This document shows, piece by piece, positions 56,305-61,798 of a DNA stretch of 64,000 nucleotides. How positions within the stretch are numbered: the first letter of the stretch is position 1; each line of letters starts with the position of its first letter. The notes beneath the pieces were generated by a model, which was given only the letters and a program-made list of their open reading frames with translations, did no database searches and was not told the origin of the DNA. The stretch is from an uncultured Lachnospiraceae bacterium. GTDB lineage: Bacteria; Bacillota; Clostridia; Lachnospirales; Lachnospiraceae. A program made the translations under genes and the position numbers. Location: assembly GCA_947565425.1 (NCBI GenBank), contig CANOFW010000012.1, positions 19,219-83,218 on the forward strand, written 5' to 3'.

Positions 56305-56745
56305 TCATAGGGTAATCCCTTGCAGCAAGTCAACGTTCCATACCATGAGCAGTATATTTTTTACGATAAAATTTATTATGACAATTCCCAGCGCCGCCCA
56401 GATATATACATCGCGGTATTTCATGCCAACCTTAATCTTGTGCTTAGAAATCCGTTCAATGCTCTGGCTGATTAAGAACCATCCTGCGGTAATGGCGGTG
56501 CATGGGACCAAGGGGTGGCAGATAAACGAGGTCACAATGTGCCCGTGCAGCAGCGCGGACACCGCCCTGGTGCCGCCGCAGCCTGGGCAATAAAGCCCGG
56601 TAACGCTATGGAAAATGCAAGGCGGCATAATCATTTTGAATGGCAGAGGCATAATCTGGTACATAAGCACGAGAATGCCAGATGCAAAGACGAGCGCCCA
56701 TCCGATATAAAATAATGCGGTTTCTTCTTTACTGCGGTTTCTCAA
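56305..56745 (-). CDS. DUF2752 membrane protein
   Basis: 146 residues from a TTG start with GGAGATGA a few bases upstream. Three or four hydrophobic segments (about 10-32, 68-88, 106-130) and the family motif GLYCPGCGGTRAVSALLHG, with paired cysteines. DUF2752 proteins are small membrane proteins of unknown function. It is the last gene of the minus-strand run that starts at 60867, 15 nt after the LanM-like gene, so it is probably in the same transcript. It converges with the ApgM-like gene. Confidence 0.88.
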   Translation of the reverse strand: MRNRSKEETALFYIGWALVFASGILVLMYQIMPLPFKMIMPPCIFHSVTGLYCPGCGGTRAVSALLHGHIVTSFICHPLVPCTAITAGWFLISQSIERISKHKIKVGMKYRDVYIWAALGIVIINFIVKNILLMVWNVDLLQGITL

Positions 56746-56760
56746 TATATCATCTCCGAT

Positions 56761-58395
56761 TTATCTATCTATAAATTGTTTGACAGCTTCCAATGCAGAT
56801 TTCGATTTCAAATATTTAATCTGCGTCTCAAACGCTGCACTCAAATTGTCGAGGGAAGTTACTGCAATCGCCCTCTTGAAAAAGGAAACGCCGTTTATAT
56901 AGCCAGTGTAATAGACAATCCCATCAGATTTTGCTTTAACTTCCATATTCAAAATGGGGATATTTCCATAAAACAAGGAACGATAAATTTCATCCTGAAA
57001 AAATTTGTTTTTTAAACATTGTTCAAACTGCCCTCTGGGCATGCATTCCATAATGTATTGGTACAGACGGTCATAAAGCTGTTTGTATAGCGGTTTCAAT
57101 GAATCCTTTATCTTAGCCGCTGTGGGGCAATCGTTTAAAAAAGAATATATGGTTTCATAGAACTCTTGCGTAGCGACCGGAACAATCCGATAAGAAACGG
57201 ATGTCGTCAATAAATTCCGATAATATTCTATCAGTTGCTGCCTGTGATTGTACAAACACGCTGCCGCCGTTGTAAATCCGTTTATGATTTGCTCCCTGAA
57301 CGCTGCTAAAACTGGAACCTGCCCTTCCACCGAAAAAGTTGCATTCTGCGCCGCTTTGCATGAAAATGCTTGCTTCATCAAACAGAGAGACGGGTCACAT
57401 ATGTCTTCACTGCTAATTGCGCTCGCGCTAAACGCGCATTCCATGTCGATGACGACCGGTCCTTCTAATGTCGCCATAATATTTTCATAATGAAGGTCCC
57501 GGACGCCAAACAGTTTGGAAATACATAACAGCGCGCCCAGTTTCGTAAAATATCTTCCTGCCTGTTCACCGCTCATCTCATCCGTATGGAATGCAAACTG
57601 CACCAGCCCGGTAGTATCTGGCAGCAAACGGATATTTAACGATGGCAATTGCATTTCCTTCTCCAAAAATTGTGAGCAAAAGGCAATCGCCTGCGTTACG
57701 ATCCAGTCAATTCTCATATCCCTCGGTTTATAAACATATTTTCCGTTGTCATAGTCAATGATACAGGGAACCTTTCCGTCACAGTGCATATCGCCGCCGG
57801 TCGGGATCAGCGAGCCGGCATCGTACACCAGCCTTGCAGCAGCCAATTGGCGTTGGATTGTTTCAATTCCCGATAAAAAATTATTGCTGCGCCGCAAAAA
57901 GAAATTGATAAAATTTTCGGGTGGTATATCCGCGCTGGGAGGGCTTACCACAAACCCTCCCAGCCGAAACAGATATTCTAATATATGGTGGGTATGGGAA
58001 GCAAACTTAGCATATATCTCTGACGCCCGTTTCAGCACATCTGCTGTCTTTTGTGGGTTTTGGGATAAAAAATAGAAAAATGTATAAGGGTTTTTCCCAA
58101 TATAGTCTGGCTCAATGGCTTTATCAAATTCTATCAGGAACGATATCAGTTCCCCTTGCAGCATGACCAGTTTCCGATAATCTATCTCATTTCGGATATG
58201 TGAAAGCAAGGATAAAACCCCATTCCTGGTCTCTTCCGTCTGTGGATTCAGATAGAAGCCCGTTAAGGGGCTAAGCTCCTGTAACAGAGCGTTCAATGAC
58301 GGGCGGGTTTGCCAATTGACCGAATAATAGATCCAATTCAGAGAACTCTGATATCGGTCGCAGTCTTTTGCGGTGGCTTTCATAAGGTTACACAT
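56761..58395 (-). CDS. Stand-alone LanM-like dehydratase (DUF4135), without cyclase domain
   Basis: 544 residues from ATG 58395, 5 nt after the previous stop; a GTG at 58431 is an alternative without a ribosome site. The sequence follows the dehydratase half of class II lanthipeptide synthetases: GGDMHCDGK (Asp202, His204), YVYKPRDMRID (Lys223), LFGVRDLHYENIMA (Asp300, His302, Asn305), VVIDME (Asp317), and R-I-V-P-V-A-T-Q with Arg403 and Thr409. Spacing agrees with the kinase-like and elimination residues of CylM as I remember them, so it should phosphorylate and possibly dehydrate Ser/Thr. A full LanM has ~1000 residues; the LanC-like zinc cyclase is missing, and the gene ends normally. No lanthipeptide leader, transporter or protease is nearby. 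Confidence 0.85.
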   Translation of the reverse strand: MCNLMKATAKDCDRYQSSLNWIYYSVNWQTRPSLNALLQELSPLTGFYLNPQTEETRNGVLSLLSHIRNEIDYRKLVMLQGELISFLIEFDKAIEPDYIGKNPYTFFYFLSQNPQKTADVLKRASEIYAKFASHTHHILEYLFRLGGFVVSPPSADIPPENFINFFLRRSNNFLSGIETIQRQLAAARLVYDAGSLIPTGGDMHCDGKVPCIIDYDNGKYVYKPRDMRIDWIVTQAIAFCSQFLEKEMQLPSLNIRLLPDTTGLVQFAFHTDEMSGEQAGRYFTKLGALLCISKLFGVRDLHYENIMATLEGPVVIDMECAFSASAISSEDICDPSLCLMKQAFSCKAAQNATFSVEGQVPVLAAFREQIINGFTTAAACLYNHRQQLIEYYRNLLTTSVSYRIVPVATQEFYETIYSFLNDCPTAAKIKDSLKPLYKQLYDRLYQYIMECMPRGQFEQCLKNKFFQDEIYRSLFYGNIPILNMEVKAKSDGIVYYTGYINGVSFFKRAIAVTSLDNLSAAFETQIKYLKSKSALEAVKQFIDR

Positions 58396-58400
58396 AATTC

Positions 58401-58760
58401 CTACGAAATCTCCTTTCCATCTGACGTACACCAGTTCTTGTGCTTGAGAAAGATTTCCCCGCTGGAAAGTGCGAGATACAGATACTTATAACACTGCATC
58501 ATAAGCTGCAGGAATTCTTCCCTGGAGCCCGCGCCATCACTGCCAATGCCAATGTTGGTATCATTATTGGGCGCATGGAAAGCCATGCCATCCGGCAGAA
58601 TCCCTGGTTTTATCAGCGTTTCAAAATAAGAATCCCAGATTTTTTTATCTGAGTCGGAAAACCTGATAATCTTATCTTTGCCCGCATCCATGAACTGCTG
58701 CGTATATTTGTCCAATAATTGCGTTAAACCTACGACATGGTCAAATTCTATTTTATTCAT
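58401..58760 (-). CDS. Unknown protein of the DUF2589/LanM-like cluster (119 aa)
   Basis: 119 residues from ATG 58760, preceded 7 nt upstream by GGAGGG; a TTG at 58775 in the same frame is less likely. Soluble, no signal peptide, largely helical at both ends. A central GIGSDGAGSREEF run and a C-terminal NWCTSDGKEIS carry Ser, Thr and Cys. I recognise no family. It lies directly before the LanM-like enzyme. It could be an accessory protein or, less likely, the substrate, since the Ser/Thr/Cys-bearing tail recalls precursor peptides. Confidence 0.75.
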   Translation of the reverse strand: MNKIEFDHVVGLTQLLDKYTQQFMDAGKDKIIRFSDSDKKIWDSYFETLIKPGILPDGMAFHAPNNDTNIGIGSDGAGSREEFLQLMMQCYKYLYLALSSGEIFLKHKNWCTSDGKEIS

Positions 58761-58802
58761 ACAGATTCCCTCCAATATCCGTTGCTACGCGTGTAGTGGG
58801 GT

Positions 58803-59342
58803 TCATTCGGTAACGTCTGCAACCGCGCGCTGCAATAAACATTTCATATTAGAATACCCTACCGTGCCAATGGCATTTGTCAGCGCAGCAAACAGTTCTT
58901 CATCCTGTTTCATATGTTCAATTAACTGCTCAGTGCAACCCTCCAAAGACAGGCCTTTGGCTGAGGCGACTGCCGCCACTTTACGCAGCAAAATGCTGCT
59001 TTCCTGAAGCAGCTGGCGCGTCCCTGCAAAGTAATCGTCTGCATAAGCTTTGCCCTGCTGCAAGCCGTTGAGCAGGTATTGCTTCTTGCGTTTCCTTTCG
59101 TATTTGCCGCCGGACCTGTCCCGTCCGTCTATCTCCGGCACATACTGGTACATCTGTGCTTTGAGGACGGCAAGGTCCGAAGCGAATGGGAGATGGTAAT
59201 TTTCGCTCATGGAGACAAGGCCTGCCAGGTATTCGCCTGCTTTTTCCTCCGGAAGGTAATAATCCTTATTAATTGCTTCAATTACCGGGACCATTTTCTC
59301 AAAATATTCTTCAAACTCTTCGATTACTTCTATCGAAAGCAT
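58803..59342 (-). CDS. Unknown helical protein of the DUF2589/LanM-like cluster (179 aa)
   Basis: 179 residues from ATG 59342 (or GTG 59345 one codon earlier) with AGGTTAGG upstream. It is rich in Glu, Lys, Ala and Leu and should be mostly helical: IEVIEEFEEYFEKMVPVIEAI at the start and a basic stretch RSGGKYERKRKKQYLLNG in the middle. No signal peptide, no membrane segment, no recognised motif. It begins 8 nt after the stop of the preceding gene, so it belongs to the operon. Confidence 0.75.
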   Translation of the reverse strand: MLSIEVIEEFEEYFEKMVPVIEAINKDYYLPEEKAGEYLAGLVSMSENYHLPFASDLAVLKAQMYQYVPEIDGRDRSGGKYERKRKKQYLLNGLQQGKAYADDYFAGTRQLLQESSILLRKVAAVASAKGLSLEGCTEQLIEHMKQDEELFAALTNAIGTVGYSNMKCLLQRAVADVTE

Positions 59343-59350
59343 CACATCAC

Positions 59351-60205
59351 CTAACCTAAGGTCAGAAAGCGCTTGGTCTCTCCGCTGTTCTCATCTTTAT
59401 CAACCACAAAGCTCACATCCTGTTCCCGGATCTTAAGTTTCACCCGCATCAACTGCTCCGGTGTGCAATTGCTTTCCATTTTGCCGGTTTCCGGCAGTAT
59501 GAGGATGCCGTCTTTTTGGTCAAAGATTTCCTTGAATTCAAAAAACATCGTGTTGCCGATGATTTGGCACATTTTTTTCAATGAAGATTTGTCAATAAAC
59601 GGCGTTTGCGTATCGGGATAAGAACCGAATTCCTGCTTACAGGCGTTTTTTAATGTGGAAACAAAGGCGTCCGTAAAGTCCAGCAGTTTCATTTCGCCTA
59701 TGTTATTTTCCTCTACATAGGTGTTCATATATGTATTCATTGAAGTGCAAATTGTCGCCACAGATGATTTATAACATGCTTTTAACTGTGGCTCCTCGCT
59801 TAATCGTATTACTCTTGGCTGTTCGGCCTGTTCCAGGTCAGGGTTCAGCGAAACCCCAATTTGCTCCGCCTCCACAGCGCCGTTTTTCAGCCAAACATTA
59901 TGCTCCTGCTTCTCATAATAGCTGTTTTTGATATTCCGGTACAGCAACGTGGGGAGGTTCCGTTCAATTATTACCAGGATTTTTTTCACCATTTCCTGGG
60001 TAATCTCCGTCTTTCGGATACCCATGATTTTCACGGGAACGTCTATTTCAGCTTCGTCAATGGTGTAATGGGGAACCGGCATCCCGCTTAAAATGGGATT
60101 CACATGATACTCTTCCGACAGGGCTGCGCTGTATGAATCGGCAATTTTGCGCGCCTGCAAAAAATCCGTTATCAGTACTCCTGCAAATTCACCAAATGTT
60201 ATCAT
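59351..60205 (-). CDS. DUF2589-related protein (284 aa)
   Basis: 284 residues, soluble. The N-terminal ~75 residues resemble a shortened DUF2589 pattern: a helical start (FAGVLITDFLQARKIADSYSAALSEEYH), then PVPHYTIDEAEIDVPVKIMGIRKTE, which parallels PIPYIRVDDATIDFNVKINSV of the upstream protein. The rest is helical and then ends in beta-type segments (GILILPETGK, RVKLKIREQDVSFVVD). Its start overlaps the upstream stop by 4 nt (ATGA). Function unknown; a hetero-assembly with the upstream protein is plausible. Confidence 0.78.
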   Translation of the reverse strand: MITFGEFAGVLITDFLQARKIADSYSAALSEEYHVNPILSGMPVPHYTIDEAEIDVPVKIMGIRKTEITQEMVKKILVIIERNLPTLLYRNIKNSYYEKQEHNVWLKNGAVEAEQIGVSLNPDLEQAEQPRVIRLSEEPQLKACYKSSVATICTSMNTYMNTYVEENNIGEMKLLDFTDAFVSTLKNACKQEFGSYPDTQTPFIDKSSLKKMCQIIGNTMFFEFKEIFDQKDGILILPETGKMESNCTPEQLMRVKLKIREQDVSFVVDKDENSGETKRFLTLG

Positions 60206-60867
60206 GATTTCTTCTCCTTTACCGTAGAGTTCTCGACCGTCGATGCATCAGAAAGCAAATCCAGTAAACGTTCCACCCCAACCGGCATATCGTCCTGTTT
60301 GGCATGGACATGGACGTTAAGGGAATAGTCCCGTTTCACGGTATCTGATGTGCTGCTCTTTTTCTGGTTGGAAATGGATGCGCTTAATTTGATTCCTGTT
60401 TTAAAGCGGAAGCCGTTATAACTGGCGTGCGCATCCACATTGCCGCCATATGTCAAATCAGTGGATGATTTTGTCTCCTGCACGGAATTGATTTTGACAT
60501 TGAAATCAATTGTCGCGTCGTCCACCCGAATATAAGGGATCGGTATCATAGTAAGAAGCGGTACCTTCAAATTTGTCACCTGTTTGAGGTTCTCTGTCCG
60601 GGAAGGCTTCTGCGTTTCGCCTTCCTCGCCTGATTCAGGCTCCTTCGTGCTCCCTGGTTTTGTCTCCTCGGGCGTAAGCGTCTTCTCATATTGGAAATCG
60701 ACGTATACCGGCTGGCGTTTGCCCTTTTTCCCTTCAAAACCGACCTCGTTAATAAAGTTCACTGTCGTGTGTGCCGCCTGGCTCTGTGCTTCTACAATTG
60801 CGCTCAAAGCGCCGCCTATGATGCTTCCTAAACTGATGGAAGAAATCTCGCTTCCGTAATCTGCCAT
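60202..60867 (-). CDS. DUF2589 family protein
   Basis: 221 residues from ATG 60867, chosen for AAAGGGGAA upstream and because family members start MA-x(2)-GSE. The conserved N terminus (SEISSISLGSIIGGALSAIVEAQSQAAHTTVNFINEVGF) and the LLTMIPIPYIRVDDATIDFNVKINSVQ segment are clear DUF2589 marks. Between them lies a Glu/Pro/Thr-rich linker (about 65-100) rich in Ser and Thr. The C-terminal part repeats Ser/Thr and ends NSTVKEKKS. The first gene of the operon, with a promoter about 75 nt upstream. DUF2589 has no established function that I know of. Confidence 0.88.
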   Translation of the reverse strand: MADYGSEISSISLGSIIGGALSAIVEAQSQAAHTTVNFINEVGFEGKKGKRQPVYVDFQYEKTLTPEETKPGSTKEPESGEEGETQKPSRTENLKQVTNLKVPLLTMIPIPYIRVDDATIDFNVKINSVQETKSSTDLTYGGNVDAHASYNGFRFKTGIKLSASISNQKKSSTSDTVKRDYSLNVHVHAKQDDMPVGVERLLDLLSDASTVENSTVKEKKS

Positions 60868-60942
60868 CTTAAATTCCCCTTTCAACCATTATTCTCATTC
60901 GTTTTGTGATTTATCTTATCGTTTTTAGGTGTCGATTTATAT

Positions 60943-60972
60943 ATTATAATCTATGTCCGGCGCTATTGTCTA
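60943..60972 (-). promoter_or_regulatory. Promoter of the DUF2589/LanM-like operon
   Basis: On the minus strand TAGACA (60967-60972), an 18 nt spacer and a perfect TATAAT (60943-60948). It predicts a leader of ~70 nt. Confidence 0.65.
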
Positions 60973-61019
60973 TCGCGGATTGTGGTTATTGTGGGTTTTC
61001 AAGATGTAAGTAGGTTTTC

Positions 61020-61065
61020 CTTGAGATAATGTGAGGTCGCTTCACATTATCTCAAGAAGTTTTTT
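61020..61065 (+). terminator. Strong orphan intrinsic terminator
   Basis: A perfect 15 bp stem (CTTGAGATAATGTGA with its complement), a 7 nt loop, then AAG and six T on the plus strand. No plus-strand gene precedes it between 60868 and 61020, so what it terminates is unclear. The rest of this ~260 nt gap holds the two divergent promoters. Confidence 0.8.
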
Positions 61066-61067
61066 AT

Positions 61068-61096
61068 TTGTCAAAAAGAAGATTATGTGCTACACT
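61068..61096 (+). promoter_or_regulatory. Promoter of the SprA-like gene
   Basis: TTGTCA at 61068-61073, a 17 nt spacer and TACACT at 61091-61096, directly after the orphan terminator. Confidence 0.65.
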
Positions 61097-61126
61097 AAAA
61101 TATAGTTTAGGGAAGGGGATGGAAGC

Positions 61127-61798
61127 ATGGCAGGTTTTATGGTAGGAATCAACACATCTTATAATGGTATACATCCGGCCGAGAAACAGATGGATGCGCC
61201 AGGCAGTCCACAGAACAACAAGGAGGCAGAGGAAGCTGGGAAGATTTCTAAGGGAGAGAGAGAACCCAGAGAAGAGCGTTTGCCGTGGGCGGATAAGACG
61301 CAGAAGGAAGAGAAGGGGCCGCAAGACGGTTTTAGACGCAAAGAGCCGGGCGAAGAGTGCCAGACTTGTAAGAACCGCAAGTATAAGGACGGTTCAGATG
61401 AGAATGTGTCCTTTAAGGCGGCAGCGCATATTTCCCCAGAGGCGGCAGCCGGTAGAGTGCGTGCCCATGAAGGAGAACATGTGGCAAATGCTTATAGTAA
61501 GGCGGCACAGAAGGGCGGAGAAGTGATGTCAGTTTCCGTGCGTATTGAGACGGCGATTTGCCCGGAATGCGGAAAGAATTATGTGTCCGGCGGTACAACT
61601 TCAACCAAGATCAGATATCCGGCGGATTCTGAGAAGGCGAAGGAGAAGAGCTCGCCGACAGATGACAAAGGCGCTCAGCGGCAGAATGTGAATCCCTACG
61701 CGGCCAATCAAAGGCAGAGTCAGGCAAATGCAGTGCGGGGTATGGGGTTTGATTATGCGACCAGGCCCTTAGAAGAATTTGAAATGGAGCGTTATTAA
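61127..61798 (+). CDS. SprA-related protein with HExxH motif
   Basis: 223 residues, no signal peptide. A charged, disordered N terminus (about 20-75) leads to a conserved core: CQTCKNRKYKDGSDENVSF, then RVRAHEGEHVANAYSKAAQ with HExxH at 114-118, then CPECGKNYVSGGTTSTKI. Four cysteines and the HExxH suggest a zinc-dependent fold; the family is known from SprA-like proteins of unclear role in many Gram-positives. The C terminus is Gln/Asn-rich. AAGGGG precedes the ATG. The DUF975 gene follows after 2 nt, so they are co-translated. Confidence 0.8.
   Translation: MAGFMVGINTSYNGIHPAEKQMDAPGSPQNNKEAEEAGKISKGEREPREERLPWADKTQKEEKGPQDGFRRKEPGEECQTCKNRKYKDGSDENVSFKAAAHISPEAAAGRVRAHEGEHVANAYSKAAQKGGEVMSVSVRIETAICPECGKNYVSGGTTSTKIRYPADSEKAKEKSSPTDDKGAQRQNVNPYAANQRQSQANAVRGMGFDYATRPLEEFEMERY

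Follow-up and report, generated by a model that had tools for sequence, protein, structure and literature searches.

What does a lanthipeptide-type dehydratase do in a gene cassette that supplies no cyclase? The question arises from a 64,000-nucleotide (nt) stretch of DNA from an uncultured Lachnospiraceae bacterium (GCA_947565425.1, contig CANOFW010000012.1, positions 19,219–83,218), referred to throughout as the window. Its genome is labelled G000; other genomes carry the letter G and loci the letter L. Five of its genes, A–E, constitute a self-contained mobile cassette that moves among gut bacteria. Gene A encodes a DUF2589 protein, and gene E a LanM-type dehydratase domain with intact catalytic residues and no LanC cyclase. 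We tentatively favour the reading that E is the effector enzyme of a DUF2589 cassette, one that would phosphorylate, and probably dehydrate, Ser/Thr residues of a protein in trans. The features are as follows (lengths in amino acids, aa).

56758..61056, minus strand, ends approximate: mobile cassette, genes A–E with promoter; limits set by where similarity of the window to the empty sites in G004 and G016 ends, the same unit being found elsewhere in G016
60202..60867, minus strand: gene A, DUF2589 protein, 221 aa (PF11655)
59351..60205, minus strand: gene B, 284 aa, weak likeness to A, member of the A-B-C core
58803..59342, minus strand (alternative start GTG at 59345): gene C, 179 aa, completing the A-B-C core
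58401..58760, minus strand: gene D, 119 aa, without known family
56761..58395, minus strand: gene E, 544 aa; a DUF4135 domain of the LanM dehydratase type that retains its catalytic residues and has no LanC
60943..60972, minus strand: promoter-like site of the operon, TAGACA-N18-TATAAT, kept in all four aligned upstream regions
61020..61056, no strand: perfect 15-bp inverted repeat resembling a terminator, where the insertion ends on the right; not preserved whole in the three other upstream regions aligned
56305..56745, minus strand: DUF2752 gene (PF10825), resident flank outside the cassette

E was assigned to DUF4135 with PF13575 (1e-33, 117.5 bits; cut-off 29), and matched the full LanM model TIGR03897 over its front part only (98 bits; model cut-off 304). 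The original prediction had named nine kinase-like and elimination residues in E (D202, H204, K223, D300, H302, N305, D317, R403 and T409), and all were confirmed when counted from the ATG at 58395. They are invariant in all nine E-type proteins, E included, and with 42 of 544 positions invariant overall, the chance of all nine falling among them is 4e-11. By alignment, their CylM counterparts are D252, H254, K274, D347, H349, N352, D364, R506 and T512, with weak alignment around R506/T512 (R403/T409 of E; −0.2 bits as a separate domain). The roles of the CylM residues follow PMC4550811, where R506 and T512 are required for elimination in CylM. The predicted fold of E resembles the dehydratase domain of CylM and LicM2. 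On superposition its C-terminus coincides with the end of the CylM dehydratase domain, and its first 58–73 residues fall outside the superposed region.

No cyclase accompanies this domain. Pfam identified no domain other than DUF4135 in E and its eight relatives, with LanC and a class III-type cyclase domain each absent from all nine proteins. LanC was likewise missing in trans, with PF05147 in none of the six E-bearing genomes (G016 is 82% and G116 61% complete). The lack of LanC noted for E held, and a LanC-like gene beside E was looked for and not found. No precursor peptide or C39-type transporter was noticed among open reading frames (ORFs) of at least 50 aa at 54–64 kb, the rest of the window and the genome not being examined for these. 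Upstream of A, no precursor-like ORF of at least 20 aa stands out; distant precursors in the genome were not searched for. There is little room for a precursor inside the cassette, with intergenic gaps of at most 42 nt. An ordinary lanthipeptide system is unlikely.

The compact layout of five packed minus-strand genes was borne out by the ORF coordinates: A and B overlap as ATGA, and the other gaps are about 5–8, 42 and 5 nt. The single predicted promoter was located at 60972–60943 and is conserved across the four upstream regions aligned, although a scan for such sites came out little above chance (16 sites against 10.4 expected, sd 3.3). The inverted repeat at 61020–61056 is degenerate in G011; a terminator and an insertion trace are both possible.

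Full-length E-type proteins were found at seven loci (nine genes) in two genera, all within Lachnospiraceae among the genomes and contigs searched. In the genus sample, five of 29 genomes carry one (G000, G011, G016, G022 and G025). DUF2589 occurs in eight of the 29, covering all five E carriers (p = 5e-4; 2e-3 without the window's genome); the remaining same-genus matches to E are frames of LanM size, 925–1078 aa. The family sample (299 genomes, 298 genera) gave full-length E in two, G000 and G116, both within its six DUF2589 carriers (p = 3e-4; 0.02 without the window's genome). Twelve of the 391 genomes of the class sample match E, full-length in the window's genome alone; DUF2589 is present in 11, two of them merely short pieces with stops. 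DUF2589 was found in two of 398 genomes of the phylum sample, the window's genome included. A contig scan contributed one extra E locus, L030, on a 5.7-kb contig. The co-occurrence that the original prediction had proposed to check was therefore found at seven of seven full-length loci, over two DUF2589 arrangements. No relatives of E were confirmed in viral contigs, and in none of 154 plasmid records does a match span 80% of E, the matches listed being LanM; carriage of E by phages or plasmids was rejected on these grounds.

Gene order differs among these loci. The A-B-C-D-E arrangement is seen in the window, G011, L030 and G016, where the cassette is split over contigs L083 (A end) and L023; both break inside B and the join is inferred. 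G022 and G025 share an E-A-B-C-vWA-E arrangement. In G116 the order is DUF2589-x-x-E-DUF2589, with DUF2589 genes of a different type, which indicates that E is linked to the DUF2589 family and not to one operon lineage. Directly upstream of the operon in G022 and G025 (L024:2590-8400 and L026:1037-6814) lie two genes, one for a TIR protein of 1236 aa and one for a diverged TIR-SLOG protein (STALD/ThsB-like), possibly making this a Thoeris-like conflict locus.

Evidence for mobility came from sites with and without the cassette. At the nucleotide level the window matches the empty sites of G004 and G016 up to 56757–56765 and again from 61057–61110. In G003, G004 and G016 a 223-aa gene directly follows DUF2752 with no A–E between, and in G002, G012 and G021 genes other than A–E separate the two; the G019 stretch, one of seven compared, shows no DUF2752. 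G016, though empty at the window's site, holds A–E at another place. The empty sites and this relocated copy define the moving unit as A–E with its promoter, about 4.3 kb, with DUF2752 a bystander. A DUF2752 gene does adjoin E, as had been described, and it is a resident chromosomal gene, present at the same site without A–E; it was accordingly rejected as a member of the system. On the opposite flank lie the 223-aa protein and a DUF975 protein. Beyond DUF2752 are genes that we take to encode homoserine dehydrogenase and phosphoglycerate mutase (apgM). The 223-aa resident (61127-61798, plus strand) occurs in 26 of 29 genus genomes, matches no Pfam family over cut-off and has a HEGEHV motif, possibly that of a zinc peptidase.

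The relocated copy in G016 bears on one alternative, namely that E belongs to an unrecognised pathway for a ribosomally synthesized and post-translationally modified peptide (RiPP). E would then act on a small peptide whose gene lies elsewhere, dehydrating it unaided or together with radical SAM enzymes. In favour, E is a genuine DUF4135 protein and is followed in G016 by a Cys-rich ORF of 75 aa that looks like a precursor, and by radical SAM/SPASM genes. However, within some 15 bp of the end of A–E comes a 149-bp segment that shares 85% identity with the 3′ end of apgM, and this remnant separates E from the radical SAM genes. At the other six loci no comparable genes were observed next to E (L030 being a 5.7-kb contig), and the missing LanC, the lack of a standout precursor-like ORF upstream of A and the narrow cassette gaps also argue against a RiPP role, which we consider very improbable. 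The G016 genes themselves (L023:10417-14908) comprise the 75-aa ORF followed by three related ORFs, of which two were scanned and both proved radical SAM/SPASM. They probably make up a RiPP cluster of the radical-SAM type next to the relocated copy, and were rejected as the pathway of E because of the intervening apgM remnant.

The partner genes were next considered. A is a clear DUF2589 protein (PF11655, 4e-29, 102.4 bits; cut-off 23). B resembles it at 32% identity over 37 aa (2e-5) without matching PF11655. No convincing family was found for B, C or D in Pfam, NCBIfam, PHROG or PADLOC, and a search for solved relatives of C by sequence returned nothing significant, the best hit being a coiled-coil design at 0.01. 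C also occurs in the E-lacking loci L080 and L140. D is confined to the A-B-C-D-E form, four of the seven E loci; in L030, where a longer antisense ORF overlaps, C and D were read by eye, and D is intact.

The original prediction had made these proteins the substrates, with E acting as a maturase on Ser/Thr of its own cassette to give a modified or crosslinked DUF2589 assembly. Linkage to DUF2589 at seven of seven loci, over two DUF2589 types, suits an enzyme acting on the DUF2589 fold. Ser/Thr columns conserved across the E-bearing loci were also lost slightly more often than other columns in all E-lacking rows (A, 5/20 vs 21/111; B, 8/15 vs 49/153; C, 3/5 vs 24/54), but the pooled difference (16/40 vs 94/318) is within chance (p = 0.20). 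Nor does the core need E, as no E-type protein occurs in 17 further DUF2589-positive genomes, G544 among them with two matches of LanM size. The two proposed target regions fared poorly. The Ser/Thr-rich linker of A is almost gone in the E-bearing loci of G022 and G025. D, whose Ser/Thr/Cys tail was the other candidate, is missing at three of the seven E loci, and the Cys in the tail of the window's D becomes Y, Y and D in the remaining D forms. The tail does keep TSDGKE, and L030 has a Cys adjacent to the last residue. Both regions were rejected as conserved substrates on this poor conservation, and modification of a cassette protein by E appears rather unlikely.

E might instead be a Ser/Thr protein kinase only, working in signalling or defence and having lost elimination or having no use for it; the TIR and TIR-SLOG genes beside the G022/G025 operon are placed as in conflict systems. 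Such neighbours occur at two of seven E loci, however, and the elimination residues R403 and T409 are invariant in nine of nine E-type proteins. PADLOC gave no match for A, C, D or E; its match of B to KwaA (0.013 over 51 aa) was taken as chance. We regard a pure kinase as unlikely.

We return to E as an effector of the cassette. A, B and C would make up the DUF2589 core, which may serve as carrier, sensor or regulator. E would bind ATP and phosphorylate Ser/Thr on a protein, and D202, H204, R403 and T409 would probably then eliminate the phosphate to leave dehydroalanine or dehydrobutyrine. The product would be a phosphorylated or dehydrated protein and, as LanC is lacking, would carry no lanthionine ring. 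The target would lie outside the cassette and could be a competitor, phage or host protein. An exchangeable effector seems the most likely role for E because some other DUF2589 cores adjoin proteases, nuclease-fold proteins, lysozymes or a lectin.

These other cores were examined at 27 E-lacking loci (18 genome or plasmid and nine phage-like, some of them near-copies; L083 was excluded as part of the G016 cassette). DUF2589 loci are mostly of two kinds, either A-B-C or a pair of DUF2589 genes, one small and one large, the pair usually with a conserved protein of ~95 aa. Exceptions are L081 and L138, with a single DUF2589 gene, and L139, L141 and L154, with three DUF2589-like genes. Plasmids of Vibrio and deltaproteobacteria also carry the second kind. 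In eight of the 27 loci, Pfam identified a gene near the core that resembles an enzyme or toxin gene:

L075: Peptidase_C39_2 (3.7e-4, below cut-off)
L077: Peptidase_C39_2 (1.5e-5)
L134: Exo_endo_phos (5.9e-13)
L136: GIY-YIG (2.6e-4, below cut-off)
L140: GH25 lysozyme; an eCIS_core gene lies farther out, past an integrase gene
L080: ricin-type lectin (1.8e-32)
L147: GH108
L141: muramidase

This pattern suggests, without proving, a DUF2589 core with an exchangeable effector slot.

The ~95-aa protein was seen in L075, L077, L078, L079, L082, L130, L131, L132, L134, L135 and L147 and not in L076 or L136. It spans Clostridia to the Vibrio and deltaproteobacterial plasmids, and the one member scanned has no Pfam family. 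Cas6 and Cas7 genes lie at least 1.3 kb from the DUF2589 core in L137, and AbiE genes ~4 kb from DUF2589 on the Vibrio plasmid pVDT1. On the phage-like IMG/VR contigs L148–L153 a 130-aa gene precedes DUF2589, with small phage-like genes around it; DUF2589 may have a phage role.

Two further DUF4135 proteins without LanC, both with N-terminal extensions, were found in G201 (L155:8571-10412, 613 aa) and G293 (L157:8326-10008, 560 aa). Equivalents of R403 and T409 are present in both by motif, a further point against a kinase that has dispensed with elimination. In a rough tree with long branches, the nine E-type proteins form a clade only when the G201 protein is included (support 95/93); within it, the G201 protein sits on a long branch as the partner of the G116 protein (95/94). 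Placement of the G293 protein is unsure. Both genomes encode eCIS_core (eCIS, extracellular contractile injection system), as do five of 23 genomes in all; the remaining three, G374, G544 and G606, have DUF2589 but lack E. A contractile injection locus with CIS tube, gp25 and baseplate J genes is present in G201, and in G293 the N-terminus of the DUF4135 protein resembles that of the eCIS_core protein, with a score reached in 5 of 1000 shuffles. Together these hint, and do no more than hint, that the G201 and G293 proteins are eCIS cargo. Further cyclase-less or short DUF4135 frames were noted in L045 (708 aa, no LanC by Pfam), L048 (350 aa), G649 (638 aa) and G485:C19 (323 aa).

Evolutionary rates also set E apart. 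The ratio of nonsynonymous to synonymous substitution rates (dN/dS) among four allelic cassettes was 0.25–0.37 for E, 0.07–0.15 for A, 0.04–0.09 for B, 0.12–0.16 for C and 0.12–0.23 for D, the D values coming from three pairs, with out-of-frame L030 rows unused. E exceeded A, B and C in six of six pairs, by 1.6 to 8.5 times, these pairs being drawn from four loci and thus not independent.

Several observations weigh against an effector role. No enzyme- or toxin-like neighbour was noticed at 19 of the 27 E-lacking loci, where only neighbours chosen by eye were scanned; the Pfam scans of these eye-picked genes had no background control, and the L075 and L136 matches lie below the curated cut-offs. 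No DUF2589 gene lies near the E relative of G201 or the DUF4135 protein of G293. The G201 N-terminus is unlike its eCIS-core protein (209 of 1000 shuffles; a control with the window's E gave 720 of 1000), and eCIS_core is absent from all six E-bearing genomes, for which reason eCIS was rejected as a carrier of E itself. The cyclase-less DUF4135 protein of G077 (L156:2506-4056, 516 aa, 5e-71) has no DUF2589 nearby and no eCIS_core in its genome. The AlphaFold model of A is poor (predicted local distance difference test score, 44), with a low-confidence long N-terminal helix followed by beta strands, and searches by sequence for solved relatives of A-type and second-type DUF2589 proteins gave nothing significant; the role assigned to the core is therefore a guess. 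Relaxed constraint would likewise account for the faster evolution of E, and many dS values exceed 1. The G077 gene sits behind an apparent response regulator and sensor kinase, as judged by eye.

A broader form of the effector reading casts DUF2589 as a general mobile platform for exchangeable conflict enzymes. E would be the first-seen member of a class of 'dehydratase effectors', LanM-type enzymes that put lanthipeptide chemistry to use beyond peptide biosynthesis by inactivating target proteins through Ser/Thr phosphorylation followed by dehydration; such enzymes would also travel as cargo of contractile injection systems in G201 and G293. We hold this extended version to be doubtful.

Phosphothreonine lyase effectors and effector kinases change Ser/Thr on a target protein. 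The outcome proposed for E is the same, except that in E a single active site would carry out both phosphorylation and elimination. With LanM enzymes such as CylM and LicM2, E shares the DUF4135 dehydratase domain and the residues for phosphorylation and elimination; it differs in being a stand-alone protein of 544 aa, linked to DUF2589, with neither LanC nor, at 54–64 kb, any precursor or transporter noticed. CcaM (LanMbC, dehydrazoles) is a divergent DUF4135 enzyme that, according to PMC10676384, dehydrates without forming lanthionine rings, needs its fused class III-type cyclase domain and acts with YcaO on azole-bearing peptides. Relative to that account, E has no fused class III-type cyclase domain; no YcaO was found among six window proteins scanned with Pfam, the genome not being searched for it. 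The CA_C0082 proteins of clostridia are LanM-like (PMC10301443); the one in C. acetobutylicum lies outside any lanthipeptide cluster and has a cellular role, with a link to agr and not to DUF2589. CA_C0082 is the reverse case, having kept a cyclase-like part and lost its catalytic residues, whereas E keeps the residues and has no cyclase. DUF2589 (PF11655) is not known to have a function; in the literature searched PMC3949148 alone names it, in a single sentence. No report of a stand-alone, catalytically intact DUF4135 protein tied to a DUF2589 cassette was met in the literature searched, most subscription papers being outside it. The enzyme domain of E is already known; its cyclase-less, intact form in a DUF2589 cassette is the new part.

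LanM dehydratases are known as peptide-tailoring enzymes, and a mobile clade that is cyclase-less and catalytically intact would mean that the same chemistry is used on proteins. The system lends itself to direct testing: it is small, at five genes, its insertion site is known both occupied and empty, and E exists in nine natural variants. DUF2589, a family nearly absent from the literature searched, gains a first functional lead.

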